Part shown: piece after piece, positions 11,501-55,353 of the stretch
Layout: each line of letters starts with the position of its first letter
How positions within the stretch are numbered: the stretch's first letter is position 1
NCBI GenBank assembly: GCA_963971405.1
Contig: OZ020487.1
Location: 42,443,039 to 42,507,038, forward strand
From: Psococerastis gibbosa
Taxonomy: Eukaryota; Arthropoda; Insecta; Psocodea; Psocidae
Direction of reading: 5' to 3'
Length of the DNA stretch: 64,000 nt
The notes under the pieces: generated by a model
The model's input: only the letters and a program-made list of their open reading frames with translations
Told to the model about the DNA's origin: nothing
Databases searched by the model: none
Program-made: the position numbers and the translations under genes

Positions 11501-14500
11501 GCCAACAAGGTACAACCTTCGAAGTCTACGCTGCGCCACTGAAGATGTCGACCGCAGATGTTGACGAAACGTTTGGAAGTTCACTTTCAATTCGACCACG
11601 GCCCATCAACCCGGATTCTACTGGTTCTTCATTTGACTCCGGCCGTGAAAGCCTTTGCAGTTATGTACATTGCAACTACTATAGTTCCAGTGCTTAGTCA
11701 GCAATTTTTTGTTACAGGATAATTACATCAAGACCTCCAAGTATTCTATGCTGACCTTCCTCCCGCTTAACCTTTTTGAACAATTTCAACGTTTGGCCAA
11801 TTTTTATTTTCTATGCCTTCTAGTTCTTCAGGTAAGTTTAACACTGAATTAATTAATTTTTTTTACTAACTTCCGGCATAATTTGTGGAAACACATTGCT
11901 TCCTGCTGCAATCTTAGAGCACCTGCAGCCCTACTATATATTTATATTATATATATATATATATATATTTGAGTGGGCCTACTATGGCGATTATTTTTTA
12001 CCTTAACCTGGGATTAAACATGTAAACAAGATAATTTTACAATTGAAAATGTTGTACAATATTTTTTTGTTTACATTTTTAACCCCAGTAGGAATAAGTT
12101 AATACGAAATGGCATACTAGGCCCGCAGGGGTGGGTAATGTCAACAGTACTTTGATTTTAAGTGTAATATGTATGAATGAATGATTGAATGAAACACGTC
12201 TTTATATTAGGCGAGCTTTAGCTCCGAAGGGCTACTCTACCAGCCAACCTATACTTATTATTTTAGTTTAGTTTTAGCTTAGTTATTAGTATTAAGGGGG
12301 CCCTAGCACGGGAGAAATCCTTTGGGCCACCCCTACTTCATTATATCACTGTATATGTGTATGTAATAAGACGCCCATTCTATCGACCGGCTAGGGCTAT
12401 TTACAAAAACAGTGACGTGGTAGCAGACTATCAAGACTTAGGCGGGGTTTCCACCGACCTCGCATTGCAGAATTGACGGAAATGTTTATTTTTTATATTA
12501 TTATTTTTAGTTAAAATTGATTAATGATCATACAGTAAAATCACAAACAAACAAACTAAAATTAAAAAATGGCGTCATGGGATATGTTAAGTACAAACAT
12601 TTTAACAGATTTCTATAAAAAGAAAAATTCTAATTTCCGTCAATGTCATTTGCATTCTGCAATGCGAGGTCGGTGGAAACGCCACCTAAGTCTTGAATGT
12701 CTGCTACCACGTCACCGTTTTTGTAAATAGCCCTAGCCGGTCGGTGAAATGGGCGCCTATTGAACGAAGGAAATACATTTATTTATTTTATTATTTATTT
12801 ATCTGTTATTCCGAAATTGACTGTTTAGCATTTATGCAACTATAAGAGTAAATCTAACTGAATGGGACTTCCAATGTTTATTTTTAGGCCTGAATATAAT
12901 TCCATCCAACATAAATGGGTCACGAGTGTGAAATTATTTAGTCGCAAGGCCAAGGCATCACATCGACCCGCGCCAACGTGCTACGTCTGGCTTAAAACTA
13001 AAAAATGGATTAAATAGGAATTACGTTTTTTTTTCTTCTAACAGTTGCTGCTGAGAAGCAAAGGCATTTCTTCATGCCCTTCAAATAACCAGATTAGGTC
13101 TGTTAGAAGCGCAACACATCCCAAACCAAAAAGATAAAACAGCAAAATTGATAGGAATCTACTTAAAAGGACATGCTACGTAGAAAATGAGCACCCAAAA
13201 ATTTGTTTTTTTTAATTGATTTTTTATTTTTTTATTTAATTAACAAAGCAAGTCATTAAAGATTTGGCTCATGGAAGTTGTAGAAGACTACTTCATGCAT
13301 CATGTAATAGGAAATACTAAATTTTTGGTACCTTAGTTCTTTCATAAATACCAGAAAAGACTAAAATTACGCGCATTCTGGGATTTTTGGAAGAACTACA
13401 AAACCGAAAAGTAAAAATACCCGATTATATAATGCACGAAGTAGTCTTCTACAACTTAGATGAGCCAAATTTTTAATAACTTGCTGAGTTAATCAAATAA
13501 AAACTGAAAAGTATTTAATTTTGGGGTACCAATTTTCTACGTGACATGTCCTCTTAATAAGAAACGCCTTACAGATTTATTTTATTTTATTTCTTTTTGA
13601 TTTATAATTTTTTTAAAGGTTAATCGCATAAAAACAATTAATTTAAGTTATTGTATGCGGTTGACCTCTTGAGTCTCCTCTGTAGGTTTGTACCCGTGTT
13701 GAATTAAGACACGTCTCCCATCGTATGGGGTGTAGAGACCTACATACCTACATGGCTACCGAACTCGGTTATTAGGTAGCTTTGACATTAGAATTCACTA
13801 CAAAAAGTAAATGTAGCCATCTGGATGTGCTATATTCATTGTCTACATTTAATTTTTGTGTGTAGAACTGGTTATATGGGGAAGAGCCGCATCCATTGAG
13901 CCAAAGAGCCGTATGCGGCTCGCGAGCCTCACGTTGCCGACCCCTGCCCCAGGTATTCAACAGGATACTGCCCTATTAGCAAAGATAATCACGCGGCAAT
14001 AAATAGGTATGGCAGTCGTACCCGTAGCCTGGTGGAAGTCAAGCATGTATGCAGGATTCCACTTCGGGGGGAGTGGTTTGGGTTTGATTTATACGTATAT
14101 TTTGGCGATGAGTTGGTAAGGCGGGTATTCCACATACGTCAATCATCAATGAAAAATTGAAAAATGACGTTTTAGCAGACATTAAAGACATACTAAAAAT
14201 TCTGCTACCACGTCAATTTACGTCATTGTTACGTCATTTTTCAATTTTTCATTGACGATTGACATATGTGGAATACCCGCCTAAGAGGAAATTTTTTGAA
14301 CAAATCGCCGCGGAATAATAATAATAATAATACTTAATAAATATATTGCGTTTCTTCAATATTACAAATTATAGTAACTCATATTCGCGGCCATCGCAGT
14401 CTCCCTCTCTACCAATATTTCTTCCACCTCTCTTCTCATTGGCTTATCTCACCCACTTATCGGCTTCGGTGGCAACAAGGTGATAGCGTGCTTTTACTAG

Positions 14501-17500
14501 TGTGAGTCTCTACACACCATGCGATGCGTAACTCAACACAAGTATTAAGTTACTTAGTGAGGCGACTGAAGAGGTCAAACGGATACATTTATTAAGTTGT
14601 TTGTATGCGATTAACATTAAAAAATTTTTTAAAAAAATCTTCTTAATCTACCTTGTCAGTACCCCTTTCACGGTGTTAAGGGACTCTCAATTAATACATA
14701 ACGCAATCTCTGTCGTTCGCACGAGCGTTTTTTCTACAATGGAACTTAAATAGCGCCAAGTCTTCGTGTTTGAAGGTGCCCTTCTGATTATAGTGGATTC
14801 CGGGCCCCTTGACTTCAGCCTCTCACATGAATAATTGAATAATTATTTTTTAATTAATCAGTTATTATACAGAGATTAATAGGTGACGGTTGGGGACACG
14901 CAACTTCCTTTACGAAAGTTCTGATCGTTACGCACTTTCACTAGCAAAAAACCTCCTCACAGAATTACCAAATCCTATCAAACAAGTCTGATATGCGGGG
15001 ATTCCACCGACCTGCTAGTGCTAAATACAAATACGGTGACGTGGTAACAGACATTCAAGACTTAGGCGGGGTTTCCACCGACCTCGCATTGCAGAATGCA
15101 AACGACATTGACGGAAATGTTTGTTTTACTCAATGCCATTGATAATTGATCATAGAGTAAAATCACAAACAAACAAACTAAATTTAAAAAATGGCTTCAT
15201 GGGATATGTTAAGTACAAATATTTTAATAGATTTCTATAAAAAGAAAAATTCAAATTTCCGTCAATGTTATTTGCATTCTGCAATGCGAGGTCGATGGAA
15301 ATCCCGCCAAAGCTTGAATGTCTGTTACCACGTCACCGTATTTGTATTTAGCACTAGTAGCAAGTCGGTGGAATCCCCGCCATAGGATACTGGCGATATC
15401 TATCTTGTACACTCTCATTGAGGCGATCACACGTGACAGTATATTGTATGCAGTGCTTTCTGGTTGGTCGAACTGCAGGTTGGCTGTAAGTCAGGTATCG
15501 CTAAGAAGTACTGCGAAGCAATGGCTTGATAGGTAACAAACCGACACATAAGTCAGGGCATGTAGAGTAGTGGTACGGACTCTGACTTTCACCCAAAAGG
15601 TTGTTGGTTCGAGTCCCACTCTGGCTACATTTTCTGGCCATGCTTCGGAGGGCATGTAAAGCAGGCAGTCCCGGACCTTCCTGGTTGAGTGTAAGAGAGG
15701 GCTTTATAGCCCTAACTCCGCTAGGTTGGCTTAGTAATAGAACAAAAAGTCAATATTTATTTATTTACTTGAAACTATAATTGCAAGTAGCGTGGCACTA
15801 TGTGCCTATATTGACCAAAACGTTTCTGTGTTGGTGGGGTCAAAAGAGTAAATGCAAACAAAACTTTGGACTAGCATTGTTCTGTAGCGCACTGTTTATC
15901 TAAACTGGCTGAACCCGCAAATATGACTCATTATCATTTATCATGTCTGCGATACTGGAACGGCTGTCGTGGGCGAAAAGATTAAGCTATTGTATTGTAT
16001 GTACTGTGGTACACGTGCAACTAGGGTAATTTCACTTTCTTCATAAAAAATAAGTTGATTCGTTGATGTGATCTATAGAGCATTAGGCAAGCCCATGTTA
16101 CCAATGAGAAGGTTCTGACCTGAATCTGGTTGCATCCATATGTACAAGAAGAGCTTGCTGGAACTAACATGTGCTATGACACGAGAACTTCGTCAGCATA
16201 GAAGGAACCATAGAAGGACGTTAACCGACCTGGGCGCCCGAGAAAAGAGTATCTGCAGCAAGTGATGGAGGATGTAGGGGCCAGTACATACGTGGAGCTG
16301 AAGAGGGCGTGCCAGGACCGAGGGGAGTGGAGGCATCGATAACATATATGTTGCTGCCAACCAGCCGGCCGGCTGTAACTTGAAGAAGGGGCATATTTCA
16401 AATGAGAAAATGAAGATTTCCTTCGAAAGCTTGCAATTTTTTTAATGAATTTTTCATCTGACCATTTTCCTGACTTGTTGGCTGTGGAACGAGAAATTAT
16501 TTAATTAATTCGAAAATCCACGGCCATTTATTATTTTGAAAGCTTTCCCTTAATTGAGCGTCATAAATCATCTGTAATAATTTTTCAATTCATGCAGCCT
16601 ACCCTTGTTAATAAAGACTGTCATGTCCTTTAATGGGAATTCAATCAGAACGGTCTGGTCGATGTTGGCAGCCCCAAGACAGTTCAACTGCTGAGCCTCG
16701 GACTCAATGCAGTGCCGGCAGATGGTAGGGCCTCTATGACCCAGTTTGGCCATGCGGGCTCTGAACACACATGGGTCTACTGACATTCAGTCTGTGCAAC
16801 CCCCTTCCTTCTTTTAGGGGAGATGAATTATTTCGATACGCGCGATTCGGGCGTTAACCGCCTTACCATTTCAAGCTCTTTGTATAGGCTGTTGACAAGA
16901 GTTCTCTTCAAAACTGCCAATCCCAAAGGGAGAATAGGTTTGTGCCCGAAGTAACGTGCGTTTCAACATGGCAATGACAATGACAAACAACTTTAAAAGG
17001 GGGCAACTCAACGATTTAGGACGTGTTCGATAATTTTACTTTAAGGATAAACGTACTGACTTATGAAAATTTTTTTTTTCTGTCACAGGTCATCCCGGCC
17101 ATTTCCTCTCTGACCCCCATCACCACTGCAGTGCCTCTCATCGGTGTGTTGTCCCTCACAGCAGTCAAAGATGCCTACGACGATTACGTAAGTTGCCATG
17201 TCTGAACCTACTTCTTAGATTGCATACAAATTTACTTTTTTTTTTAGCTATTAGCAAAAAGCCTATTCTGCATTATATATAATTTGGGTTTCTTTACAAG
17301 TTATTGAGCGCCTGCATAAATATGATTATGTAAAAGATAGTATTCGTATTGTCAAGTGGCATGATAATGGGCATTTTATATCTGTCAGCTGTCAATGCTT
17401 CGAATTTAAGTTGATGTTTAAAGCAGATGTACCCCATGCTGAGTCATTTGATTGGATGCGGCCATGTTTCGGAGGTCATTTAAAGCAGGCGGTCTTCGGA

Positions 17501-20500
17501 CACAGTAGTTGAGTGTAAGAGAAGGCTCTTGTTACGGTCATATACCGTAGCATACAGAGGCAGGATTGGAAATCTGAGTGAACCTAGGAACGACCCTGAG
17601 GAGTAGCTAGGGTGGGCCACCAGCCACTCAGGGTCTATATTTGTATGTTTAATATGTTTAGCTTATAAGGTAGTATAGTTTTATAAATAGTGTTTTTGTG
17701 TATTCTGTTTTACTGTTTGTACCCTGTCTTTAATTTGTGTTTATTATATCGTGAGTTCTCGAATAGGAAACACGGGTATCACAGAATAAGGATAGAATAG
17801 AAGTGCTACTAACATAGCCCCCCTTAATTTATTCAAAAGAGCGCAGTCTCGTTTCTGTCAGCGGAACTAGTGACACTACGTTAGACATTTATGTTCATAT
17901 TATTGATAATATTAAGAATAAAAACGTCGAATTAATTCTCAAAAACGTTTTCTAATTATTTTCGAATAGAAACTGCAATTTTGTAATTACATAAAAATAT
18001 ATTAATTTTAAAAGTGGCTTACTGACTTGTTATTTGACGGATGCGCATGACCGAATCCGAAATGTACACAAAAAATAAACAATCGCCATGCCATTCCATT
18101 TTTGCATTGTCACAGTTCAATATGAAATATCACTGCTGCAATTATAAGTTAAGGTGAGGGTAGAGCTGAATTTAAGTGAGGTTGCATTTAAATTAGTTAA
18201 TATTTGGAAATATTTTCACTTAAAAATTTATTGAAGAAAATTACGATAATTTGAATACTGGCGGGAAACAGACAGCGCCTCTCGTTTCTGTCAGCGGAAC
18301 TGAGGTTGGCCGTATTGGATAAATCAAGTTTTTAACATGGAGTGACATCCCCCTGACGGGTATTTTCATTGCCAGCAGTGGTTTTTCCCCAACCGGCCAG
18401 GCTGCCACAGCCTCTTCAACAGCTCTTTACGTGGCGTCAGCGATATGGCAGGTTCTCTTCCACTCCTTGCGATTCTGTGCTTCGACTGCGGTTGCTCCTA
18501 CGATTCTGAGGTCTCGGCGGACTTTCGCTTCTACTGTTGGTCTTCCCTATATAGCTTCGATATGTTTTAGCCACTTTATTAAGTAATTTGGCTGCCTTCT
18601 CTTGTTCAGCTCCCTGACCTAAGAAAAGTGTACAGTATCCCTTTATTACGGAATAAGGGTTTTGATGAACCAAGGGAGGAAAAAGTAAGAAATTGGTAGA
18701 TGACGAAGTGTCGTGCGAAACCGGAATGACTTGAGTAGAGTTGTTAAGCAGGGCAAAGCCCATCGAGGGCGGTATGATGTTTCCTGTCGTAACCAGAGCG
18801 ATGAATTATTTTGCAGCAAAGACACAGAAACGATTCAACAGTGAACAACCGGAAGTCCAAGGTGCTTCGCGACCGGAAGTTGGTGGACGAGAAATGGGCG
18901 CAGGTCCAGGTGGGCGATGTGGTCCGCATGGAGAACAATCAGTTTGTGGCAGCAGATGTTCTTCTGCTGTCAACGTCCGAGCCCAACGGGCTCTGCTATA
19001 TCGAGACTGCCGAACTAGACGGGTAAGCAAAACATATCGCATGCAAGGCGCGAAGCGCCGAGCCTCAGCCCCCAGTAGAGGCGGATGCCTTATACTTGCT
19101 TGCTTGGCCATCTCCGCATGGAGAAAAACCAGTTTTTGGCAGCCGATGTTCTTCTGCTGTCCACGTCCGAACCAAACGGGCTCGTATCTCGTATGCTGGA
19201 TTTCTCAGCGAAACAACTCCATTATGCCTACTTACTTAACGTGTCCGGGCGTAGGGCACTTAGCGTTGTTGTTGTTGGCCGATTAATGGCCGAGTAATTT
19301 ATTATTATTATTATTATTTATTACTTTAAAAAACGATAGTCGCGTGCATACAATTTAATGAATGTATCCGATTAACCTCTTCAATCGCCTCACTAAGTAA
19401 CCTAATAGGTACTTGTGTCGAGTTGCGACACGTATCACTCGCTGTTTACATTTTTGTAATATTTGTTTACATTACCCTGCCTGGCCGTTGGGCAGAACCT
19501 GACTTCCCTAGTCAAAAATTCTTCTTTGAAAAATTTTATAATAATCATCAGTCATGACAAAATAGTGAAACTCTTCTCAAAAATAACTCTTATAATTATG
19601 ATTTAAAAAAAATACCAATATTCAACGATATTATTAATACGAAACATTTAGGTGTTTAGGTTTAGACTAGCACAAGTCCAAGCACGCTACCACCTTGCCA
19701 CCAAAGTCGCTTAGTTGCCGCCGTTACTAGCAATCGCCCATTTTCGTGTTGTAATCTCAAGTAAGCCCAATCTTCGAGGAGGCTGCTTCTATGTCCCCTT
19801 CCATATCCAACTAATGGATAGCAGATGACTGAAGTTTCGTGGCTGGCTTACATTAATCGCTGATTGTTGCAGGGAGACAAATCTGAAATGCCGGCAGTGC
19901 CTGGTAGAAACGGCGGAGATGGGTCAAGATGATAACAGCCTGGGAAGTTTCAATGGCGAAATTATCTGCGAAACTCCCAATAACCTTCTAAACAAATTTG
20001 ATGGCAACCTTACGTGGAATGATAAGAAGTAAGTTCACTGTTTTATCTCAGCGATAATAAAATAAAATAGATGGCGCCTAACTATAAGCTTAGTATTGCA
20101 GATAACGGTAAAATGTGGGAGGATAGGAAGAGTTTCCAGGTTATGGGGTCCAAGCATAATAAGAGAAAAAAAAATGTCAGGGTTTCCCAACAAATTTTGA
20201 CTTTAGGGCCGTAATTGGTCATTATAACTATATTTGATCGGTAATTCACTTATGTATCCTGAAGAGTAATTTAATTATTGTCCATATTCACTGCTTAGAT
20301 GTACAATCGGTCTACTAGTTCCTGAGGAGGACAAATTTTCTTGGAACTCTGCACATTTCTCACATTTCACCCTTAGGCGCTGATTCCACCAACGTCAATA
20401 GTGACATTAAATGTTTTTTGACGTGGTAGCAGACATTTTTAGTATGGCTAAAACTGTCTAAAAATGTCTGCTACCACGTCAAAAAACATTTAATATCACT

Positions 20501-23500
20501 ATTGACGTTGATGGAATCAGCGCCTTAATCCGCCCCTACCTGTTGTTGTTTCTAACGCCTGCTTTCAGCATTTCTGCTTTTAAGCAACCCTGTCAGTGGG
20601 AGTGAGTCTGATTGTTAACTTGAGGCACCCTAAGGGCAGACTCTTTCACCTCGGGGAAAGGGAAGTTGACTCACAGGGTGGACCTCCTGATTATAGTGGA
20701 TTCCGAACCACTTGGGTAACATGGTAAAGTCACACGATTAAATCGGAGGTGACCAGGACTAGACACACGACACACACGTAGACTGACTCGTATAGTCTCA
20801 GCGCGTTATCATGTCCCACCATGCTCCCTTGCCAACGCTGTGCACACTACCAAGTTTGCCGCAGTGTGAAACATGCTCTGCTTTAATGGATTCAACATGG
20901 TAAGGCGGTTGGCATTGCGCCCCTACCTCGGTAATGGTACATTTTTTGTAGAATAATATGTGGGTTATTTTGGCTCCAAATTGAACGGGGAACACGCCCT
21001 AGAAGTTTGTCACCGTTCGCCTGAAACACCCAGTATAATACAGTCATTAAATTGCCCTACTGGGGTATTCAATTGTTTTAAACAAATGAGGGCAAATTGC
21101 GCGGGGAAATTCAAATTGATAAATTAATATTTTTTGATGAGTTTCTAATTTTTTCTCTCTTAGATGTAGACACATTAATTAAAATTCTTATTATATTTCA
21201 AAATTCTACCTGTACATTTTAATGTTTATTACTAGCAGTATTACCTTCAAATATTAAACATTGCAACCATTCTCTTGCATTCTAATATTTTATTAATTTC
21301 AATTTCCCGCGCATATTTTAATACCGTCACGTGACTCCTTACGACAGCGGTGTTAAAAAATAAACCCTGCTATTATAATAATCCCAAATCGCCATGATCG
21401 GGCTGCAGGACTAGAACGTTCTCACACACCATATATTTTTTGCCCCAAACTTGGTTTAGGTTAGGAGCCATCATTAAAACGCAATTTTTGTTTTTTTCAG
21501 GTACTCTTTAGACAACGACAAAGTAGTTTTGCGTGGTTGCGTCTTACGTAATACCCAGTGGTGCTATGGCGTAGTAATCTTTGCGGGCAAAGATACGAAG
21601 CTTATGCAAAACTCGGGCAAGACCAAATTTAAACGTACTAGTATTGACCGTCTCCTTAACTTTATTATTATTGGGGTAAGCATCAGGTTACTATAATAGT
21701 TAGGATTTATCGAGGAATATAGCAAGAATGGAAACAAACGAGTCGGTCAACGGAACTTTGTGTCCCTTATCCAATTTTTGAGGAGTATGTATGCATAAGG
21801 CGCCCATTCCACCGACCGGGCTATTTACAAAAACGGTGACGTGGTCGCTGACATTCAAGACTTGGGCGGGGTTTCCGACGACCTCGCATTGCAGAATGCA
21901 CATGACATTGACGGAAATTTGATTTTTTTTTTTTATAAAAATCTATTAAAATGTTTGTACTTAACACATCCCATGACACCATTTTTTAATTTTAGTTTGT
22001 TTGTGATTTTACTGCATGATCATTGATCAATTTTAACTATGGCATAGAGGAAAATAAACATTTCCGTCAATTCTGCAATGCGAGGTCGATGGAATCCCGG
22101 CCTAAGTCTTGAATGTCTGCTACCACGTCACTGTTTTTGTAAATAGCCCTAGCCGGTCAATGGAATGGGCACCTAAGGCGCATTTGCCACAAAAAAAAAT
22201 ATGTTTTGAGTTGGTGGTATCACTGGAATCGTCGCATTGACTGCTAGAAAATAGAAATGTTAGTTTGGTGCAAAACGCGTATAATATCAAAGAATATTAA
22301 TTAAAATATTACAACCTATAATATACTTGTAATAGGAATTAGATTTTAGAAGTTATTTGCCCCTCCTGCATTTACAATGTCACGTGACAAATCGCCTTTT
22401 GGATACTTGCAACTCATTTTTGCTGATGGGTTAGTTGACTGCTAGTTTACTAGAGGTGGGGCGTGACAGATATTTCCAGGAGCAACAGTGACCGGTGACA
22501 ATGACTCGACAGTCACTGATACAAATACTGGTGATTTCGGTCACTGGAGTGACTGCTTTTGTTCGTGCTGTCTAAGTAATCTTGGTACATCTTGGTATGA
22601 GTAATCAAAAGTCACTGTCACTTCTCATATTTGACAGTGATGTATTCAAGTTACATAGACTTACGTTAACAATTAAAGTCGGATATTCTTTTGTTTTGTT
22701 ATGCTAAGAAATTTAAGAAGTAGTAATATATACAGTATATATAAACTAAAAGCTAGCCAGTTATGGAGCAGTCACGGTGACAGCCTCGGGCATACCTTAT
22801 GTGTAGCTTACGTGAGACGATCGGAAAGCATTTCGGGGAATTTCTGCCTAGTGCATAGGCTAAACCTGAGCGAGTTACTTGCTCTTGCATGCGACTATCA
22901 GAGTATTAGAAACAAAGCTATTTAAAATATAGCCTAAATCGGTGACAGTGAGACAGTGACTCAAATCACCAGTATTTTTTTTGGGTAGGAACGGGTGGTT
23001 GCAGTGACCATCGTAGTCACGGTGATAAATCCGGTGATAAATCACAGTGACAGAAGTAACGCCCCACCTCTATAGTTTACTACGTCAGGAGTTGGTGATG
23101 CAGTGGATTCCGAGTCACGTCGACATACTTGGAAATGAAAAGGCGGACTTCTTGGTAAAGATGGGCACAAAACTAGCCCAGCCTAGCAAAGCAACACCCC
23201 TCACGGCTGTGAGAAACCTCATAGACATATCAGTACGGAGGACAAACCAGGATAGACTGCGACTAGCCTCAAGTGGAAAACATTGGAGCACACTGTTAAA
23301 CAACCCCGTAAAGAAGAACCTACCACGGCCCACTTCAGTAGCAGTCTTCAGAACAACAACCGGGCACGATCTTTTGGCATCCCACCTTCACCAAATTGGA
23401 ATATTGAGGTCCCCCAACTGCGTCCTGTGTACCCCTATGGTCGCCAGCCACCTCATGGACTGCCCGATGCTTGATGATGAAAGAAACGATCGACTTACCG

Positions 23501-26500
23501 GAGATGAACAGACGGCACATCTATACTGGTCAGCGCGGCACCTGATGGCAGAAATGCCAAGGGTGGGCGTTGGCTAGTAAGTAAGTAAGTAAGTAAGTAA
23601 GCAAGTTTACTACGTATAATAGCTGAACATACTGATTTTTTTTTCTTTTTTCAGATTGTATTTTTCCTACTCTCCGTGTGCTTGTTTTGTATGGTTGCGT
23701 GTGGTATTTGGGAAACCATTGTAGGAAGGTATTTCCAGGTTAGTACTTAATCTTCCTCTATAAGATTTATATGTGAACTTCGAGGGACAAACTTAGGCCT
23801 CCTCACGTACTTAACGTGTCCGGGCCAAACATTGCGGTTTGGATTGCCTTGTAATTGACATCTGAAAGATTTGTCAAGGGATACAGCTTCTTCTAGTCCA
23901 CGATCAATCAATCAATTAATCAAATGTGAAATGTAATTTTTACATAATGCTGATATGTGGCTTGTCCGTTAGTTTGCTCATATTCTCTATAGGGTTTGGT
24001 CTCTTTTCAGTTAATCGCGGAACGCTGTCAGCTCTAAAACGGTTTTAGCGGCGAGGGTAATAAAATGCGCATTAAAGTGGTTTTTATGCCCCTGCAATTC
24101 AGCTGAGTTTGCTGAGTCTCAGCCCCTGGTTTCAGCCAATATGGGGGGAGGCTGGAGGTGGATAATAAAATTCTATAGCTTAATCCCTTCAAATTATAAC
24201 TGACAGCCGTTTCCATCCTATAATTGTTTTGACTTTTAGAATGTATTTAACCGCTACGTATATATTGGCCCCTCCCGAATTACCCGAATTATTTCAGTTA
24301 TTATAACTTTCACTCATATACGAAGTATAGTGAAGTATTGTGACGAATAGAAATGTTGGGTTTCTCATGATCCGAGGTCCTGAGTCCGAAAAAGGTCCCC
24401 AAATTCCTAGCGCAAATTCCCAATAGGGACCCGTGCTTTAATAAAAAAAATAAGAAATAAAATACTATCAATATTTCCTGTCAATTTATTATTACGATTA
24501 CGATTCCCATTTTTATGTGAAACTACAATATATTTTAATAATTTGTTTTTTTGTTTCTAGTTGTACCTGCCGTGGGATTCATTAGTACCTAAAGATGCCC
24601 TAAATGGAGCCACAATCATAGCTTTGTTGGTATTATTTTCATATGCTATAGTTCTGAATACCGTTGTGCCTATTTCTCTCTATGTGAGGTAAGAATCCTG
24701 CTTTTGTTCTTAAGAGGAAGCTTGAAATTGGCCACCCCAAAATAGGTTGGTTTATATCTTTTATTAAATTTAATATTTATGTAAATAACGATTTAGTATG
24801 TTCCATTAGTAAAGGGCTATTTCATACATAGTACTACGAGGCTTTTTTTAGTTTCGGTGCAGTAGGTTTTCCGTGAAACTATAGGCGACAGAAAGTTACA
24901 GAATTATTAAATTTATGGAAAAATAATAACAAAAATGAAAACCCCCTTAGAATACGGTGTATATGAAATTATTATTACACTGTAGTATTATATGGTATAT
25001 ATATAACACTGACATTAAATTAACTTTGGTTGAAGAGGTGACCTCCTCGTTATAACCGAAATTAGACAGACCTGTTCGGTTAGATAGTTGTGTAGTTGTG
25101 CTAACCTGTCTAGCAACACGAATCATGTCAATTAGAGCATAAGTAGAGGATTTGGCATTTACTGGACTTGTCGGGGCTTGTGGTCCAGTGGTTAAGACGA
25201 CGCCCTGGTTAGGCGTAGATTGTGGGTTCGAATCCCGCCAAGCCCAGTTTTTTCCATATCCTCTAATTTCGGTATATGAAATTGTCTCCTACCAATTGAA
25301 TGGACCAAATCTTTACAACTTAGGTATTAACTTAAATAAAAAATATAAACCAAACTATTTTGAGGTGATCCAGGGATTATGACATGGGTAATCTTCCTCT
25401 TCGTGCCTTTAGATAAATCTTTATCTGTATTTTTGAATATTTGATCCTGGATAAGATGGTACTTAATTAGCTTACTTTGTGAATTCTATAGAGATCGGTT
25501 TTATCACATGTTGGCGCGGGGCACTAAGACGATTTCTAAGTGCAAATGCACCGGGAGATCCGTCATTGGAGCTTATGTGTTGGTGAAGAAACTCAGAATC
25601 CACTACAGAAGATTTCTCTGAGAAGATCTCTCTGATTGCGCTGGTGCACGGTTTTCCGAAGATGCAGTGAGAAATCTTCTGAAGTAGATTCTGGGTTTTT
25701 TTACCTATCCATTTGCTCCAATGACGGATCTCCAAGCGTATCTGCTGCGTCTTTGTGCACCGGGCCCAAGTAATTATTATTATTATAATATTCTGATTAA
25801 AGGTTTAATTTAATCTGAGGCATTTAAAAAGGCCATAAATGAGTATGTTGGGCGTATTTCTGGGTTTCTAAGGGAAGTAGTGTAGTTTGGTGTTCCCAGG
25901 ACCTTATTTTCTGTGTAAAGCCGCACAGCAGTCTTAGCGGTACAATTGATTTGTTATATTGCTTCTCATAGTCACGTATTGATTTTCAGTGTTGAAGTTA
26001 TTCGGTTCGCGCAGAGCTTTCTTATAAATTGGGACTTTAAAATGCATTGTGAGAAGTCCAACACTTTCGCCAAAGCCAGAACTACTACACTGAATGAGGA
26101 GCTCGGCCAGATCCAGTATATTTTTTCTGATAAGACTGGAACTCTCACTCAGGTAACAAAAATTACAGGCAGGTCATAAAGTTTTAAATATTTTGTTTTA
26201 AGAGAATATACTACGTAGACAATCGACACCTCAAAATTAAATAATTTTAATTTTTTATTTCATTAACTCAGAAAGTTATTAAAAATTTGTCTCATTGTTG
26301 TAGAATACTACTTCGTGCATCATGTAATCGGGTATTTTTACTTTTCGGTTTGTTTTGTAGTTTTTCCAAAAATCTTAGTTTACGCGAAATGTTAGTCCCC
26401 ACTGTTTTTTATGAAAAAAACTAAGGCACCAAACATGTAATATTTCCTATTATATTATGAATGAAGTAGTCTTCCACAAATTACTCGTACATGAGCCAAA

Positions 26501-29500
26501 TCTTTAATAACTTACTTTGTTAATTTAAAAAAATGTAAAGTCAATAAAAACAAGAAATTTTGGAGTGCTTATTTTCTACGTAGCAGTCCTCTTAAGCAAA
26601 TGATAACTGAGTCTTTTTGAGGGATTCAATTAATTCCTCGTTGTGAAGTCACAAAGGCAATTGTCAGATGAAAATTGAATAAAAAAATGCTAGCGTGAGG
26701 AAATTGCTAGAGGAAAAAATAGAGAGAACGCGAAGAAGTGGAAGGCCATGGAAGAAATACAAGAACCCGATTGAGGACGATCTCAGAAGAGTGGGACTGC
26801 TACAAGAAGAAATGCTGAATAGTCAGAAGTGGAGTACAGGAGGGAGTGTAGGAGGCTCACAGATCACACCCGTACCACTGCAGCTGATTATTGATGATGA
26901 TGATGAGAAGCTATATGTCTGGCGACCTTACAATATTGTTGTTTATTTTTGTTATCAATAGTCGTATACTTACTCAGTGGCAGCTCGTGGTGTATCAAAA
27001 TGGTGGGGCAACGAATTGTAATAAAGTAATAGCATATAACTTACCACTACTTGAATATCAAATAGATTCTTCGGCATTTCGATGTGGCAAACAAGTCTAT
27101 CACTCGCTGTTTACATTTTTGTAATATTTGTTTACATTACCCTGCCTGGCCGTTGGGCAGAACCTGACTTGCCTAGTCAAAAATTCTTCTTTGAAAAATT
27201 TTATAATAATCATCAGTCATGACAAAATAGTGAAACTCTTCTCAAAAATAACTCTTATAATTATGATTTTTAAAAAATACCAATATTCAACGATATTATT
27301 AATACGAAACATTTAAAGTCATGTTTGGGGCGCTGCCCCGCTGCCCATGTATAAATGCATATGGCATGAATTGCATTGCAAGGTCCATAAGAGAAAAGTT
27401 GTGTACACCTTTTCAATGGTGCGAACGATCTTCTTAACTTTTGCCTGACTCGGTTGCCATGGCGACCCGGGGCTAAATTGAAAATTGCCCCAAGTTGCCC
27501 AGAGCACGCACATAGCATAGCCGAATTGTAGCAGTTGCATTTTTCTTCAGAATAGTATATTATTATTTTATTATTATTATTATTATTAAAAGGAAATTGC
27601 TTTGTTTGCCTGTAAAATTATGGGAGGGCTGTAGCCCCAGTGCCCTTATGGACGAGCCGCCACTGATCATCACTATTCACTGGCCGCCACTGTACTTACT
27701 AGCTTTCTCGCAGGCTGTTCACCCAACCGAATTAATACTATTTTATAAAACCACCATCGTGGGTTTTTTAGAGAAATGATATTTGAGAAAATGAACATTT
27801 ACTCCGGAAGCTTGTATTTATTTTAATGAATTTTTCATCCGACCATTTTCATCCTTGCGGCTGCCGAACGTGGGATTAATTAAATTAGCCAAATAGACTC
27901 AGTTGTCATTTTTTTAGCCAACGGCCTTACCAAGTTGAATCCACGAGAGCAGAGCGTTTCAAACTTGGTAGTGTGCACAGGATTGGCAGGGAAACATGAT
28001 GGGACTAGATAATGGAGATGATGGATTTTCTTAAAAATAGGTCTAACTTTAGAGGAGCATTTAACATGGGAGAAAAACCTTTTTGACGCCAAAGTTGTAT
28101 GTTTATGTTTATCGATAGGCCTTCAAGCAAGAAATCCAATCCAATCAAAAACTCCTATTCGAAAAAAAGCGGAGATAGGCCCATTTGAAAATAGGCAACT
28201 CCCATGTCTAATATAGAGTCCAAGTCGTGTGGTAAACGAGACAAACTTGAAAAGCGTGATAAAATAAATATTTCTATTTCCAGAATATATACCTTCAATA
28301 AGTGCTAATCCTGATAAATTATACATTTCTATTTCCAGAATGTAATGGCCTCCAATAAAGGTTAATCGTGATAAACTATGTATTTCTATTTCCAGAATAT
28401 AATGACCTTCAACAAGTGTTCAATAGCTGCGGTGTGCTACGGTGAAATTCTAGATGAAAAGGGCGAGATACTGGAGGTAACTGAGGTGGGATAACTTTAC
28501 ACGGAGCTTTCTTACCTTGTGAATCAGGGCGGATTACAGAATTCGTTCCTTAGGCGCGGTTTCCACCGACCTCTAAGTGCAAAATACACATACGCCATAC
28601 GGTGACGTGGTATCAGATATAATTAATAAAGGCGGGGTTTCCACCGACCTCTCATTGCAGAATGCAAATGCCATTGACGGAAATATTTGTTTTACTCTAT
28701 GCCATAGTTAAAATTGATCAATGATCATAGTGTAAAATCACAAACAAACAAACTAAAATTAAAAAATGGCGTCATGGGATGTGTTAAGTACAAACATTTT
28801 AATTGATTTTTATAAAAAGAAAAAAATCAAATTTACGGCAATGTCATGTGCATTCTGCAATGCGAGGTCGTGGGAAACCCCGCCCAAGTCTTGAATGTCA
28901 GCGACCACGTCACCGTATGTGTATTTTGCACTTAGAGGTCGGTGGAAACCGCGCCTTAGAGTATTCTTTAGATCCCTTTATACTTATAGTCTTCCATAAC
29001 TTGTAGGTTCTGCCATTTCAACTTCCATTTAAGAGCAAATCGGAGTACCTCCACTAGTCAGAAGTGGCTTGGTGCGCTGTGAAGGAGTTGACATGGCTCA
29101 TGCTGAGGCGCAAGATGCAAAAAGAGAGGCCTTAACAATAAGAAGGGCCCAGCCCAGCTGTATCAGCTTAGGGCGGCTATTCCACCGACGTGATTTTGAA
29201 TGTGAATGTGTCATGTCGTGGTAGCAGACATCATTAATAAGTCTACCATATTATAACTTAATTTATAATAGCTAAGTTCAGTATCTACATAATAAGTCTC
29301 CTTAAAATATGGCAGAGACTTATTAATGATGTCTGCTACCACGTCATGACACATTCACATTCAAAATCCACGTCGGTGGAATAGCCGCCATAGCAGCGGA
29401 AAAGTCACGACTATTCAGTATTCTGATGTAATGCTGAAAAGAAATTCCAGAATAGTTCGTAGAAGGAATAAAGAGTGCCCCCGCAAAGTCGACTTTCACA

Positions 29501-32500
29501 TGGATTATCGATCGTGGAGCCGTAAAAAATATCCTTTAAATTATCAGAAATGCACCTCAATATTTCGATTTAGAACATGTGGGTATTATGACTAACAAGT
29601 TCTTGAACACCTTTTTGTACAAATGAAATGCAATAATTTCTTGCTAACCTAAATTCTGCCACTAATTGGTATCTGGGTAAGTTCTTTGGTGGACTGTCTT
29701 TCTGCACTAGTTTTTCCCACATTTTCCCAGCAGCGTCGGTCCTGTGAGCTGTCTCACACTTGGCTTGAAATAATTCTTTGGTATGCCTCTTACAGTCACT
29801 TAAAGTGAGTTTGTCAGGTTGTTCCATAGTAGCTCCCTCTCTGGCGAGCCTGTCGGCTTCCCCAATTCCATAGACATCAGCATGTCGTAATTATTGACGG
29901 ACGCGCGTATTAGGTGGCAATTCCACCGGCGATTTTACTTCATTTGTGATTTGCGATTTTTTGTTTGTTTTGTTTTAAGGAGACTTATGTAGATACTTAA
30001 CTTATCTATTATAAATTAAGTTATAATATGGTAGCAGACATCATTAATAAGTCTCTACAATATTATAACTGAATTTATAATAGATAAGTTAAGTATCTAC
30101 ATAATAGTCTCCTTAAAACAAAACAAACAAAAAATCACGAATGAAGTAAAATCGCCGGTGGAATTGCCGCCTTACAGTTTTGGCACCGGATTTTAATTAA
30201 AAATTAATTTCTTTGCTTACAGAGTACACGGCCGGTTGATTTTTCATTCAATAAAGACCATGAGTCCGGGTTTCGGTTTTACGACCAGAAACTTCTCGAA
30301 GATGTTCGCAATAATAATCAGCATTGTCACAATTTTTTCCGCGTCCTGGCGTTGTGTCACACTGTCATGGCGGACACCAAAGATGGTAATGGAATTTTTT
30401 AGTCCTTAGGCGCCAATTCCACCGACCGACTAGGGCTAAATACAAAAACGGTGACGTGGTAGCAGACATTCAAGACTTAGGCGGGGTTTCCACCGACCTC
30501 GCATATCCCATGACGCCATTTTTTAATTTTAGTTTGTTTGTTTGTGATTTTACTGTATGACCATTGATCAATTTTAACTATGGAATAGAGGAAAACAAAC
30601 ATTTCCGTCAATGTCATTTGCATTCTGCAATGCGAGGTCGGTGGAAACCCCGCCTAAGTCTTGAATGTCGGCTACCACGTCACCGTTTTTGTATTTAGCC
30701 CTAGCCGGTCGGTGGAATCCCCGCCTTACAAAAGACCCCTGCTCAGTGTGACTACACTTAATCCTAAAAAAGAATTAACTCATAAAGAAAAATGGGTCCA
30801 CACGACCCTAACAGGTACCTTGAGGAACTTGAGTACACTGTACTGGCACTGTACGCCCGGACACTTGTTGACTACAACATAAGTGTCCAGAGAGTACCTG
30901 TTACTCACGGTGGTTGGCCGTTGTTTTTTTTCTTTTTGAAACTGAAGAAAGGACAATGGCGTCCTCTGTAGAGACAGCTCAGCGATTGCAGAAGGAGTAA
31001 AAACTACTCAAAATAAATGTGTTGATCATGCTATGGGCAGAACGGAAAGGAAAGCAGGGGAAAACGCGGTTGCCGGACGATTTGCTGACCACAACAATAG
31101 AGCAGAGACAGTACCTCCTGCTCGCAGTGGCTTTATTCTTTTTTAACTTAAGGAAGGACAACGGCATCCTCTGAGTAATAATTCTCAAAATAAATTTGTT
31201 AATCGTGCTATGGACAGAACGAAAAACCATTTTCCCTATTGTGAACAAAATAACTTTGTAAAGTTTTACGTTATAAACATAAAATACACAACTGGTTTCT
31301 GCTCTCGCCATTGTCAAGTGTAAGGAAACCGGTTGCGTATTTTATGATTATAACCTAAAACTTTACAAAGTTATTTGTTCACAATGAGTGACAATAAGTT
31401 TTACAATATTAATAAAGAGACTAATATGTTTAAACTATTTTTCGTTGGGTCGGGTTAGTTTCAAAATCTCTGTTTTGTCTGAGCTGCTATTTTCTGAGTT
31501 TGTATATGGCTCTAAGCATTAACTGATGATTTCAGGTACTTTGGAGTATCAAGCGCAATCACCGGACGAAGGGGCATTAGTATCAGCTGCGCGTAACTTC
31601 GGCTTTGTGTTCAAAGAGCGCACTCCTAATAGCATAACAATAGAAGTAATGGATAAGCGAGAAATCTATGAACTGCTTTGTATTCTCGACTTCAATAATG
31701 TTCGCAAACGGATGTCAGTAATACTAAGGAGAAACAATTCACTGAGGTTTGTAGTTATTTATTTATTTTTTTTCATTTTTTTGAACAGAGGAAGCTAGTG
31801 GAAACACAGTGCTTATTGTCGATACTCGATTTCCAACAACCTGCAGTCCGATCTATCTGAAAACAATGCGCATTCACCATACCAACGACCAGCGTATGTG
31901 TGGGACATTGGATAGCAGCTACCACCTTCAACACAGCAACCAATTATCAGGCTTATCTGTAAACTGCAGCATTAGTTCCAAATGAAAAACAGGCCGAAAA
32001 TCCATCAAAGTACGCACCTGAAGTCCTTAATTCTTGGGAAAATTGTTGTTTTTTGGACCACTGCTACCGTTTTCATGGAACTGACAGAAAATTGGCTGCA
32101 GTGTTGAAGGTGGTAGAAATAGCTACTACACAATGTCAATGCGCTGGTTCGGTGAAGATCCGAAAGGTGTGTGTGATCTTCTTCCTTGTCTCATCAGAAA
32201 TTAGTTTTCCTCTTGGAATTTTTTAAATGTTTTTTTTTTTAGTCAAATATTTTTCAGCTCTTTTTACATGATAAATTGGACAACAAAAGAAAATTTTGCC
32301 TTTTTTGTAACCTAAAGAGGATTGAGCAAAAGCTTGCGAACTATTATGCCTCCCAAATGGATGAAATAAAATTTAATTCTGAAGTTTATATTGCTAAATC
32401 ATGTTCTCTGTCGACTGATATCAAGTATTATTAAGTCGGGCTCTTGCCAAACCACTGCCTGTTATTCAGGTTAATCTTCTTTATACCAATAAGGCCTTGT

Positions 32501-35500
32501 GACTACTTAAGAGCGGGGTATGCCTATGGGACAGAGAATAGCCCATAAGTAGCAGCTTCCTCCCAAAGTTTGGGTGCACGCCTAGTTCAACAAATGCATT
32601 ATGTCAATAAAATGTAGAGGTTCAAGAACACTGGTTTAGTTTGCATCAATATTGTCTTCTACATTTCAGACTGTATTGCAAAGGTGCCGATAATGTGATA
32701 TATGAAAGGCTGAAACAAGGTTCAGAGGCTCTCAGCAGCAAAACTCAGGAACATTTGAATGTAAGTATTTGTTTTAACAAATCGTGAATCAAATCGGGCG
32801 TGTAGTTTTTTTTTTTTTTTTTTTTGCGAAATCAATTAATTTCTCGATACACGGCTACAAACATCTAAAAATGGATATTGGACTACTTTAGAAAAATACA
32901 AACTTTTTGAGATGGAGAACATTTACCTTGCGGAATTACCGATATTCTATAAAATCTGGATAATGCATTTTTTTAGTAACTAATACTATTTCAAGTGATA
33001 AAATGCAAATTTACTATAAAATTATTTATTAAGTCTTCAAAATATCATCCTAATAGGGTTGCGGCTGTGGATCGAGGTATTTATTATTTTTTTCAAATCA
33101 ACTCTGGCCAGCATAAAACTGCAAAGCTGATTTTTTTTTAATGTTTAACTATCAATCATTTGATATGACAGATTGTCTGTGCCTGTGTCTGCTTCTGAAT
33201 AGCCGCCATCCAAACAGTACCATAACCGGTTTCACAACTGTCTAATATATGGAAATATAACTGCACTCGTTTTGACTGCAGAAATTTGCGGGGGAGGGGT
33301 TGCGAACGCTCTGTCTGGCTGTGCGGGACTTGGACGAGAGGTTTTTCAACAACTGGAAACAACGCCACCAGGAGGCAGCACTGTCGCTGGAGAACCGCGA
33401 CGAGAAACTGGATGCCATCTACGAGGAGATCGAGAAGAACATGACGTTGGTGGGTGTCACCGCCATTGAGGATAAACTCCAAGATGGCGTGCCGCAGACG
33501 ATAGCCAATCTCACGATGGCGGATATTAAGCTGTGGGTTCTTACCGGAGACAAGCAAGGTACCCTAAATTAACTATACAGTGAAGCAGTAAAGTGACATT
33601 GGTAGGCGCCATTGAGCCGACGTCATTGTAGGGATAGGACGTGGAGAATGGTTGGTGCAAACTCACAGTGTCCACTTGAGAACATTTCTAGGATCTGGCA
33701 TATCTAGGGGAAACCCGGGCTTTTTCGTGCTCGTGCTCAGCTTCCAAAATCGTCAAAAAAAATCGACAGAAAATCGTCTGCCTGTCTTTGACTACAATGG
33801 AAAAGACGTCGGGAAATCGCGACAGCAAGAATCGTACGTGTGTGTACCTGGCGGAGAGACCAAGATGGCGTACCGCAGACGATAGCCAATCTTACGATGG
33901 CGGATATCGAGCTATGGGTTCTCACCGGGGACGAGCAAGATACGTCAAATAAACTATTCAGTGAAGCAGTAAAGTGACGTTGGTAGGCGCCATTGAGGAT
34001 AAACTCAAAGATGGCGTCCCGTAGACGATAGATAGTCGCATTGTGATGGATTACAAGCTATAGTTAATCGCTGGAGGCAAGCAAGGTAGGCTTTTAAATG
34101 AACTATACAGTAAAGTAGTATAGGCGGCAAGGATAAACACCAAAATGGCGTCCTGCAGGCGATTGCCAATCTCACCATGGCGGAAGCTGTGGGTTCTCAC
34201 CGGGTTCAAGCAAGTCAGGCTAAATATCTGTAAATTGTTCTGTTACAGAGACTGCCATCAACATTGGGTACTCGTGCCAACTGCTGACTGACGACATGAC
34301 GGACATGTTTGTGGTGGACGCTACGACGTACGACGACGTCGAGTGCCAGCTGATGAAGCACCGCGAGGCCATCCGAACGGCGACCGCCCCAGGCGGCCAC
34401 CACACCAATATTAGCGTCGTCACATTCAGGTTTGGTGACCGATCACCCCGTGCAGCCACCGTTACCAGGTTTCAAAATCATTCCCTTTTTATGCGCAAGT
34501 CATTCGCCTGGGGCTGCGGCGCTCTGCTCGTCTTTACGTCTGTCTCTCTTTGTCCTTTTTATTTATTTCTTGTCCCGCACGCATTGTTTCAAGGAATACT
34601 ATTTTGTCGGCTACAGTGTGATTTGTCACTAAATGGTGTCATACTCTATTATTTTTTCCTGCATTAAGGGAACTCACATATCCCATGGTGAAGGGAGAAA
34701 CTCAGTTACGTTTAATTAGCAAGGAAAAGTACTTACTTCACTTTAACGGCGCCTTGTCCCTCCCACGGGGTAGGCGGCACGGATCTTCAATTTTCTGGGT
34801 GTTACGGCCTTATGCGACTTCTGGTGACAAACCCGGGGTCATAAATTCCTCATTTCAGTTTCTAGGGACATTTTTCGTCGTCCTATTGACTGGTCTGGCA
34901 CCCTCCACCGAATAGACACTCACACGTTGTAGCAGGTGCCCATCGTCTCTCTTCTTCGTGCTTACCTCCATGCTAACCTCCGTTTCCTGACTTTTTCGGT
35001 GATAGGGGCCACCTGCATCTCCACTTGAGTATCTTCGTTCCTCCTCGTGTCCGGTAGCTTATATCTGAGAGAGTAGCGCAACATTCGCATCTCCGCCACA
35101 TGCAGCAGTTGCTCTTGCATCAAACTCGGTCTCACTACTCGTTTGTAGATGTGACCCTTCAGTTTTTCGGCATTCACCTTTCGTTCAGGATCCCCACCAT
35201 ATCTCGCCTAAGCCTGAGCTTATGCGTACACCATGCTCTTCACAGCCTCAATCCTCGTGTTTATGTTGCTCCCAGGTATTTGATGATCATGGCTTTCTCA
35301 AGGTCTTGCTTGTCGATTTTTATTTGTCCAAGCGTTTGGTTTACGCATTCCATGTACCCGGTAAACTGGTAAGGAAAAGTATATACGAGTAAATAGAAAA
35401 GGTATACAAACGAAATTTATTTCCTTAGTTTTTCCAAGTTATCATGGGATATGTGAGAATTGTCTGGGTAGTTTTGAGACCTAGTTCCTTAAACAGCCCT

Positions 35501-38500
35501 ACAGAGCATAAATAATATCACTTCATGTAACAAGTTTTTTTTTTGGTTAGTAAATGGGCTAATAGTGACACAATTTTAAAATTCTGTTTGGATCATAACC
35601 CTTAGGTGCCCATTCCATTGACCGGCTAGGGCTATTTCCAAAAACGGTGACGTGGTAGCAGACATTCAAGACTTAGGTGGCGTTTCCATCGACCTCGCAT
35701 TGCAGAATTGACGGAAATGTTTATTTTCCTCTATGCCATAGTTAAAATTGATCAATGATCATACAGTAAAATCACAAACAAACAAACTAAAATTAAAAAA
35801 TGGCGTCATGGGATATGTTAAGTACAAACATTTTAATAGATTTCTGTAAAAAGAAAAATTCTAAATTCCGTCAATGTCATTTGCATTCTGCAATGCGAGG
35901 TCGGTGGAAACCCCACCTAAGTCTTGAATGTCTGCTACCACGTCACCGTTTTTGGAAATAGCCCTAGCCGGTCAATGGAATGGGCACCTTATGATAATTT
36001 TCATAATTTCTCCATTTCTTGGATGACATACGAGTATTAATGATAAGTATGATACCATAAACAGCACGAAACAGTGATCGTAAATTGTCACTCGTCTTTT
36101 GATTCTTACTAACCCGATTTTATCGTATGTTACGTGATCCAAATCTCGGATTTGTCTTCTGTTTCTATAACTTAATAGCCTTTCCTCACTTTTAACCGCC
36201 CATAAGTTTCAGTAGTGCTTATTTGTTTTATGGGGAAACTTTACAAATTTAAAAATAGACCCCCACATGGCGTGAGAGATTAATTGGCACACGGTCCCTC
36301 TGAAGTAAGGTCCTCGTAATAAATAATTCACATATCTTCAAATACTGTACCGTACTTATGTATTGTATTGTTTGTTCTTCGACAGTTCTATTCCTAATCC
36401 CCTCATACCGTGCAAGGTACCTCTATATAACCACTTTTCCTCTTCAACCAAAGTTAATTTAATGTCAGTGTTATATATGCCATATTATAATACTGCAATA
36501 TAATGTGTGCCTCTATATATCCCTTCCTCTTTAACCAACTTACAGTTCATGCACTCTTAACAATAACCACAGTCAACACTGACACAGAGTCACACCACAC
36601 TATTCCATACTATACCACACCTCTGTGAAGACCTGAAATATCTCAAATTTGATGAAACACAATAAATTTACTTACTTACTTATTTACTTATAGAAAGGAT
36701 TGTTATGCATTAAAATATGATAATCTGACCAGAAATAAGACTTACTTTATTGAATTTTGTTGGTTAGCGATAGTCCCGTGGAAAAAATCTATTGTGTATT
36801 ATTACAGTTTATAATTGAAAGAGGTCTTCATAGATCAGTTTTGCCAATATATCTTCTTCTTTTAATGTCTCTTCTACGAAAAAGATTGGCGATCATCATG
36901 GCAGTTTGGACTTTGGAGACTGCTGTTCTGAAAAAGGAAGTCGTGCTCTTGCCAAACCACTTTCTCAGGTTTTTCAATGAGGATGTTCTTCTGCCGGGAG
37001 GGACCGAACCAGAAATTAACTAATTAGCTCTCACATCAAGTTTTTTTTTTTTAAATATTCCCCTTAACTGTTTACATTTGTCCTTCAAAATAGTGCGTGC
37101 CACTACAGTCCAAATTTTGATACTTTAGGTTTGCGTTGGCTGTGTTATTCATATTATATCGTAGTTATATTGTTGAAATGTATTCTGTAATTCATTAATG
37201 TTGCGCATAACATTATGGTTGGTTTGGCCAAAATCGCTTTCCGTTGCTGATTTCGTTGGCAAGCGCTCGCCAAGCTGCAAGCAGTTGCTGCTCATGAATT
37301 TTTTTTATTGGGGGAAAGCTATATTATTTGTAGGGGGCGTTTCTCTGCCGTTGAAAAACAATAGTTCATTTTATATTAGTTAACTGATAATAAAGCTATC
37401 CTATTTTTCTTCCCATTGATTTGTCGAAATGAGGGTAAATTCGCAAACCACTTACTAGCGTTGTTAGTCGCTTAATTTAGCCAAAAAATTTAATAACCAT
37501 TTTATTTTCGTGGGACCCCGCTGTGATGATACGGTTGGCTCTCTCTTACACTAAAGTAGTGCCTTTGGTGTATTACGGTATTACTTTAGCTCATATTGTT
37601 CTACTATAATACTAATTAAACTTGACTACTAAATTATTGCAACCACTTTTACATGCAACATTTTTACAATAATACGGAATTAGCTAACTGAATTGGCTTG
37701 TAGGTACACGATATGCTTAGCAAGTTTTAGCTTGCTGAATTCCAGATGGCAGGCGAAGGGTTTTTCAGTGTACCCTACATTGGTGTTAGAACTGTTAGCA
37801 TTTTGTGTATGTTGCATCGCGCTGTATTCGTTCTCAATGTGGGATTTATTACCATATTATTTATTGATCAATGGTCAAGGTTATTGTTGACGTCTTTTTG
37901 AGGCCTATTTCTTTATTACGGCAATGTTATTTAAAATACTTCACCTTGAAAAATAAGAGGATAATAATAAAAGGGGGGGCCCTTAAAAGTGCCGACATCA
38001 TGGCCCTTATGAGGTGTCGTGACTAGGAAACTGTCAGTTACTATATATGAAGAATATAATAACGAAGGCTTTCACGGCCGGAGTCTAATAAGGGGACAGA
38101 AGAATCCGGGCTAATAGACCCTGGTCGATTTGAAAGTAGGCTTCCCCGGTCTATTAGCCCGGATTCTTCTGTCCCCTTACTATATATGAAGGTTTATTAT
38201 TTTTTAGTCCAGTAGATACTGCATAATGGTTGGAACTATTTTAAAACGCTCCCCATCAGCTTAGTAGTATCGTACCCAGAAGTACAGAAGTATGCCATGT
38301 CTTCAAGTGAAAATTCGAAGATTTCTTAGGTTTTGCGCTTTTCTAATTAAAGGCATTCGCATCTACTGTAGTTTGCAATTCTTGGCTCATTTCTTGTTTT
38401 CTAACTTTGCACTTTTCATTATGTATAACCATCACAAGCCCGCGATCTTTTTCTAGTCTTCTGAATTGTCTTATGTGTCACTAACAGCAATATCGATGCA

Positions 38501-46732: not shown

Positions 46733-46871
46733 GGCGCTTATTCCACCGACGCCAATAGTCAAAATATTGATGATATTGACGTGGTAGCAGACATTTTTAC
46801 ACTGTCTTTAATGTCTGCTACCACGTCAAACACGTCAATAGTGAACTATTGACGTCGGTGGAATAAGCGCC
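46733..46871. mobile_element. GGCG-family palindromic element (P7)
   Basis: A 139-bp palindrome with ends GGCGCTTATTCCACCGACGC and a matching right arm, flanked by ATA on both sides. The right half is nearly identical to that of P1 (6204-6341). Confidence 0.88.
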
Positions 46872-55152: not shown

Positions 55153-55353
55153 GGCGGGAAAAAATGCTCAACCGACGTGGATTTTGAATGTGAATTGTGT
55201 CATGACGTGGTAGCAGACATAATTCTCTACCATATTGTAACTTAATTTATAATAGATAAGTTAAGTATCTACATAATAGTCTCCTTAAAATATGGCATCA
55301 TATGGCTACATGACACATTCACATTCAAAATCCACGTCGGAGGAATAGCCACC
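55153..55353. mobile_element. GGCG-family palindromic element (P9)
   Basis: GACGTGGATTTTGAATGTGA and GACGTGGTAGCAGACATAAT on the left are mirrored on the right by TCACATTC-type sequence and TCCACGTCGGAGGAATAGCC. It is closely related to P5 (29172) but decayed. The right arm has lost the GTAGCAGACAT block. Confidence 0.75.

Follow-up and report, generated by a model that had tools for sequence, protein, structure and literature searches.

The window analysed here, a stretch of 64,000 nucleotides from the insect Psococerastis gibbosa (contig OZ020487.1, positions 42,443,039 to 42,507,038; contig C12 of the 409-Mb genome that was searched), holds six copies of a non-autonomous, PIF/Harbinger-like composite element, in which one miniature inverted-repeat transposable element (MITE) encloses another. 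Both the outer and the inner MITE have GGCG...TTCCACCGAC ends in all six copies, at the positions given in a preliminary description of the locus, with which our reading of the sequence agrees (Table 1). The two copies described there as reversed are those at 21799 and 30409, in which the inner element is inverted and, at 30409, has lost a part; the orientation of 30409 was read from the sequence, the automatic test having left it unclassified. An outer target duplication of TTA or TAA is likewise present in four of the six copies, as described, and the flanking 3-mers match perfectly in five. By contrast, the claim that the junction between outer and inner element is the same in every copy does not hold: the copy at 28553 has ATTAATAAA to the left of the inner element and CAAGTCTTG to its right, and the copy at 14994 has AAAGCTTG on the right. 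The 800-bp flanks of the copies are unrelated to each other (blastn, E 1e-3) except for one pair, the flanks at 28955 and 30409, which physically overlap and contain two other MITEs. Segmental duplication is therefore not the origin of the six copies.

To follow the element beyond the window, we compiled 74 distinct composites out of 77 detected, having dropped two that repeated window copies and a third that was an exact repeat. This sample was drawn from searches and is not a random one; a pair of near-copies (L019 and L020) is still counted, and the boundaries of one copy in L081 are incorrect. The outer flanking 3-mers are identical in 46 of the 74 composites, compared to 20.4 expected by random pairing and a maximum of 34 in 20,000 shuffles. 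The matching 3-mers comprise 18 TAA, 17 TTA, 6 ATA, 3 TAT, 1 ATC, and 1 TAC. Composites with their own 3-bp duplications lie on many contigs of this one genome, supporting the earlier proposal that a transposon inside a transposon has spread as a single unit.

That the nesting itself is a true insertion cannot be read from the dominant inner junction (CTTA before the inner element, TAAG after it) alone, since its 3-mers are mirror images (TTA and TAA) in 48 of 74 composites and direct repeats in 1 of 74. These mirrored triplets are best read as the outcome of later symmetrisation of the arms and not as a target duplication. The copy at 28553 and its relatives, however, have ATCATTAATAAA on one side of the inner element and TAAGTCTTGAATG on the other. 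Joining the two sides of this asymmetric junction predicts an empty outer MITE with the centre GATATCATTAATAAGTCTTGAATGTC, and a 66-base query built in this way showed that it exists: 33 of the 40 scored matches (of 812 candidates) were 100% identical at query bases 8-59 (52 bases). A 35-mer pattern for the empty centre, with two two-letter positions, has 270 matches in the genome; both predicted letters were present in 28 of the first 100 listed, and the rest were mostly a sister variant with the centre GTCTTTAATG (by eye). Read end to end, the empty outers are palindromes of approximately 140 bp. Their flanking 3-mers match in L087, L088, and L096 and differ in L085, L086, L089-L092, L097, L098, and L100, while L099 has lost its left tip; among outer-type MITEs without an inner element, the flanks match in 12 of 22. 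Relative to the empty site, the filled site has gained the inner element and a further TAA, in most cases together with an additional A, and the nesting is therefore a true insertion. One filled match, L093, found with a slightly different search pattern, lacks this A; at 93% identity, its outer arms are close to the empty outer. All 11 asymmetric copies that were classified have the inner element in one orientation, with its ATG-side end next to ATTAATAAA. Outer-only, inner-only, and composite forms, for which the preliminary description had proposed a genome-wide search, all exist, the inner-only form as L021.

In the first genome search, all 40 matches scored (of 1836 first-look candidates) were 94-100% identical over approximately 385 bp and came from several contigs. 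The symmetric junction 35-mer (CTTA-GGCGGGG...) has 3155 exact matches in the genome (1556 forward, 1599 reverse; controls 0) and the asymmetric junction has 461. Both exceed the 270 matches of the corresponding empty centre, a count that leaves aside outer-type MITEs of other subfamilies. Exact junctions were present in 4 among 14 composites that no junction search had targeted, which suggests some 11,000 copies genome-wide. This extrapolation is rough, with a range of 6,000 to 25,000, given that 3 of the 4 exact junctions lie in the six window copies and 1 in the 8 other composites. With such rough copy numbers, 1 to 4 composites are expected per 64 kb, compared to the six seen; for exact junction 35-mers, 3 are present versus 0.5 expected. 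The local density had been called strikingly high: there is moderate clustering, only approximately 2- to 6-fold over expectation, and support for the stronger wording is weak. A comparable cluster lies on contig C1 (8,903,978, 8,920,867, and 8,922,374), among the first 100 junction sites listed.

The two outer arms of one copy resemble each other, being 94% identical on average, whereas the median identity of an arm to other arms averages 85% (n = 76), and a 5-letter tag is common to both arms in 57 of 74 copies, compared to 19.0 expected. A graded series emerges when the arm consensuses are compared with the empty outer: L093, L019a, and L033 come first, followed by the asymmetric, the left-symmetric, and finally the right-symmetric class, with identities to the empty outer of 0.93, 0.93, 0.95, 0.85, 0.81, and 0.70, respectively (L093, L019a, and L033 rest on two arms each, the left-symmetric consensus on four). 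Left-symmetric copies have ATTAATAAA on both sides of the inner element; 11 exact pairs were seen by eye among the first 100 asymmetric-junction sites listed, and L094, L095, and L101 were read. Because the empty outer has the asymmetric arrangement, the most plausible reading is that both symmetric classes are derived, one arm having been copied onto the other in each. Mirror-image outer flanks (TTA/TAA or TAA/TTA) occur in composites at L005, L007, L022, L033 (two), L039, L050, L051, L076, L077, and L081 and in the empty outers L097, L098, and L100; arm copying that ran into the target site may be one conceivable source of them.

We also fetched 30 of 112 matches with a base other than C before the inner end and classified them by reading. 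Most of them (24) were composites in which a base had changed; the others were 4 hybrids that have an inner end on one side and an outer end on the other (L013, L015, L016, and L037), 1 inner-only copy (L021), and 1 match to an ancestral-type outer end (L033). All four hybrids and the inner-only copy are flanked by TTA on either side, which suggests that the inner ends have retained the capacity to serve as ends. This is support and no proof, because the search pattern required the left TTA and outer ends often have TTA next to them. The rarity of inner-only copies applies to TTA flanks, one 35-mer, and the 30 loci read, TAA-flanked copies lying outside the search. It is possible, if rather doubtful, that the hybrid and inner-only forms arose by recombination between repeated ends within one arm, without any transposition by the inner ends. 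The forced left TTA would be compatible with this, and in L015 and L016 the outer tip equals the inner tip over the first 11 or more bases, so that collapse could have occurred there. L041, with a chimeric right end (inner body and outer tip) and TTA on both sides, shows that collapse between repeated ends also happens. However, the inner tip at one end of L013 and L037 differs in sequence from the outer tip at the other, and L021, with TTA on both sides, has neither outer arm, which favours inner ends that still function. The L016 hybrid has a further, unrelated insertion inside its inner element.

Taken together, we consider it very likely that the composite was born by insertion of the inner into the outer MITE, was then mobilised as a unit, and had its arms symmetrised later. 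In what was probably a single event, an inner MITE of approximately 240-255 bp would have inserted at the TAA in the middle of a palindromic outer MITE of the same terminal inverted repeat (TIR) family, giving ATTAATAA(A)-inner-TAAGTCTTG. This four-ended product was then mobilised via its outermost ends to thousands of copies; a PIF/Harbinger transposase supplied in trans is the presumed agent. The subfamily series would have followed, both outer arms changing together, and the arm segments beside the inner element would have been symmetrised either way, to CTTA on both sides or to ATTAATAAA on both sides. Of this history, the nesting with its empty site and second TAA, the mobility of the composite as a unit, and the existence of asymmetric and symmetric classes are demonstrated here. 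A single founding insertion, the transposase, and the copying of one inverted arm onto the other, whether through gene conversion or template switching, are inferences.

The assignment to PIF/Harbinger is based on the 3-bp TTA/TAA duplications and the TIR start: among the 46 perfect target duplications, 35 are TAA or TTA and 6 are ATA, and the start GGCGGGGTT of the inner element and the empty outer fits the G(N)5GTT-type motif used for plant PIF/Harbinger elements (PMC2213677). The main later outer subfamily (GGCGCCCATT) lacks this start. At approximately 385 bp and with thousands of copies, the element is also short, non-coding, and abundant. Harbinger-like transposases are numerous in the genome (PF13359, DDE; 150 scored matches), as are MADF-type proteins (PF10545; 113 scored matches), and PIF transposons carry both genes, according to the available part of PMC9710019. 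The search for a parent covered four DDE regions (L069-L072), two of them (L069 and L070) also in translation, and three short stretches with MADF-type starts (L102-L104). L069 (C2:50586000-50590500) is Harbinger-like: one strand has a 288-residue MADF-type frame and the opposite strand a fragmented DDE frame; by reading, its tips are AGCCGCGTCTCCACCAACC (AGCCGCGTCTCCACCAACCGAACA), with TTA on both sides. These tips equal those of the MITE at approximately 14-15 of 19 positions by eye, and L069 is not the parent of the composite. The inner element contains a short open reading frame start that is kept in many copies (for example, window 12570-12690) and resembles the start of a MADF protein by eye only. 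It gave no significant Pfam match, the one match listed (E 0.13) being to an unrelated herpesvirus family, and in a protein search the best 2 of 150 listed (of 14,762 candidates) were composites. It is possibly a remnant of a gene of the parental transposon.

Several observations weigh against the origin proposed above. Among L069-L072 and L102-L104, no autonomous parent with GGCGGGGTTTCCACCGACC tips was found, only the tips of L069 being similar. A perfect outer duplication is absent in 28 of 74 composites, 11 of which have the mirror flanks. The extra A of the 461 asymmetric junctions is unexplained by a simple 3-bp duplication, with one match only lacking it, and of the 11 orientation-consistent asymmetric copies, one is the query and nine were fetched with it, leaving L013 alone as independent. 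Finally, an arm often has closer relatives than its partner, as on average 14% of the other arms resemble it more; conversion after insertion is therefore not demonstrated, only concerted change between subfamilies. Recombination between two copies may be another route to arm symmetry.

The empty 140-bp outers could also be excision products of composites and not the ancestor. PIF/Harbinger elements can excise cleanly, and the empties correspond to asymmetric composites minus the inner element and one TAA (usually with one A). We nevertheless regard this as improbable. The arms of the empties are unlike those of the common composites, with the identities of 0.85 and 0.70 given above, and their sister variant was not seen among the tabulated composite junctions. 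Moreover, for the symmetric class, whose junction has the highest number of exact matches, no outer-only form with the corresponding centre (...GACTTAAGTC...) was among 40 scored of 324 candidates; 30 loci cut out in this search were composites or composite pieces with a variant inner tip. Least probable is a single long-arm, foldback-type MITE with its terminal repeat tandemly duplicated within each arm and never a second transposon: the mirrored dominant junction without direct duplication and the approximately 49 nearly identical bases common to the inner and ancestral outer ends (by reading) would suit it, but it is largely refuted by the existence of the empty centre. Asymmetric composites differing from that centre by an inner element, a second TAA, and usually an A, and the inner-only copy with TTA on both sides, also speak against it.

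MITEs are usually accounted for as relics of internal deletion. In contrast, the sequence record here is that of a MITE built by fusion. Since the empty, asymmetric, and both symmetric forms coexist in one genome, the effect of extra ends on transposition efficiency becomes testable, as does the question of how palindromic transposon arms stay alike during sequence turnover. Tentatively, and with more doubt than confidence, we propose that the nesting itself caused the success of the element. By doubling the ends recognised by the transposase, it may have produced a four-ended MITE that outgrew both parents approximately tenfold or more (by exact-match counts), could be moved by any pair of ends (outer/outer, inner/outer, or inner/inner), and was re-palindromised by arm copying while its terminal repeats drifted in concert. 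We base this proposal on Galileo, whose long arms contain extra internal sites bound by its transposase domain (available part of PMC3688188).

Table 1. Composite MITEs and their inner elements in the window (coordinates are window positions; hyphens mark the junctions with the inner element).
Feature	Position	Strand	Remarks
Composite MITE copy 1	12370..12757	+	Symmetric junction (CTTA-..-TAAG), outer flanks TAA/TAT
Inner MITE of copy 1	12441..12686	+	
Composite MITE copy 2	14994..15381	+	Outer element flanked by ATA/ATA; degenerate inner junction on the right (AAAG)
Inner MITE of copy 2	15065..15308	+	
Composite MITE copy 3	21799..22173	-	Inverted inner element; outer target duplication TAA/TAA
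Inner MITE of copy 3	21865..22102	-	
Composite MITE copy 4	28553..28955	+	Ancestral-type asymmetric junction (ATTAATAAA-..-CAAGTCTTG), outer duplication TTA/TTA
Inner MITE of copy 4	28631..28884	+	
Composite MITE copy 5	30409..30725	-	Inverted inner element with an internal deletion; outer target duplication TTA/TTA
Deleted inner MITE of copy 5	30480..30654	-	
Composite MITE copy 6	35605..35988	+	Symmetric junction; outer target duplication TTA/TTA; no difference between the outer arms in the segment compared
Inner MITE of copy 6	35676..35917	+	

The window holds further GGCG....TTCCACCGAC-ended MITEs or parts of them without an inner element, at 6203-6341, 10024 to approximately 10170, 14120-14281, 20376-20524, 29172-29389, 29913-30171, 46733-46871, and approximately 55205-55353. 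Most of these have the motif ACGTGGTAGCAGACAT, and several have matching flanking 3-mers. Two direct repeats of 218 bp (19433-19650 and 27098-27315; 99% identical) are unrelated to the composite MITE, and an imperfect palindrome lies at 13222-13510 (135-nt arms, 79% complementary). An open frame at 40113-40565 may, judging by its last residues, be an exon of a P-type (P4) ATPase.

In the open-licence literature searched, we found neither the TIR sequence of the composite nor a MITE-in-MITE composite with four similar ends, a surviving empty site, and arm symmetry in both directions; the available parts of the silkworm and Helicoverpa MITE papers (PMC2997013, PMC9033116) do not show its family. 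The composite resembles PIF/Harbinger (Tourist-like) MITEs in its 3-bp TTA/TAA duplications and its GGCGGGGTT TIR start, and by eye its tips are broadly like those of L069, but it differs in that its arms are approximately 100 bp or longer and hold a second set of ends. Foldback, Galileo, and Tetris elements also have long arms with repeated internal blocks (PMC3688188, PMC4079207, each in part). Galileo, however, belongs to the P superfamily and its repeats are read there as internal duplications, while those of the composite are read as a nested insertion. Foldback-type growth of the arms by internal tandem duplication was rejected, as it was an inserted element that supplied the second end and an empty outer exists. 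Nested MITEs are known from plants, where DcSto1 carries DcSto2 or a Tourist-like MITE (PMC3695323); these too are MITEs inside a MITE, but individual insertions, and the available part of that paper does not mention amplification of the nested unit. A precedent is mammalian MER6/MER6A, a MITE into which a transposable element inserted and which was then amplified as a composite (PMC6887750, in part). This insertion and amplification of the pair are mirrored here by the empty site, the filled site, and the composite's own target duplications. Whereas the MER6 insert is a short interspersed nuclear element, both partners here are MITEs of one TIR family, which results in four similar ends and arms symmetrised afterwards. 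Amplified composite MITEs are thus already known, and the present element is a new variation on that theme.

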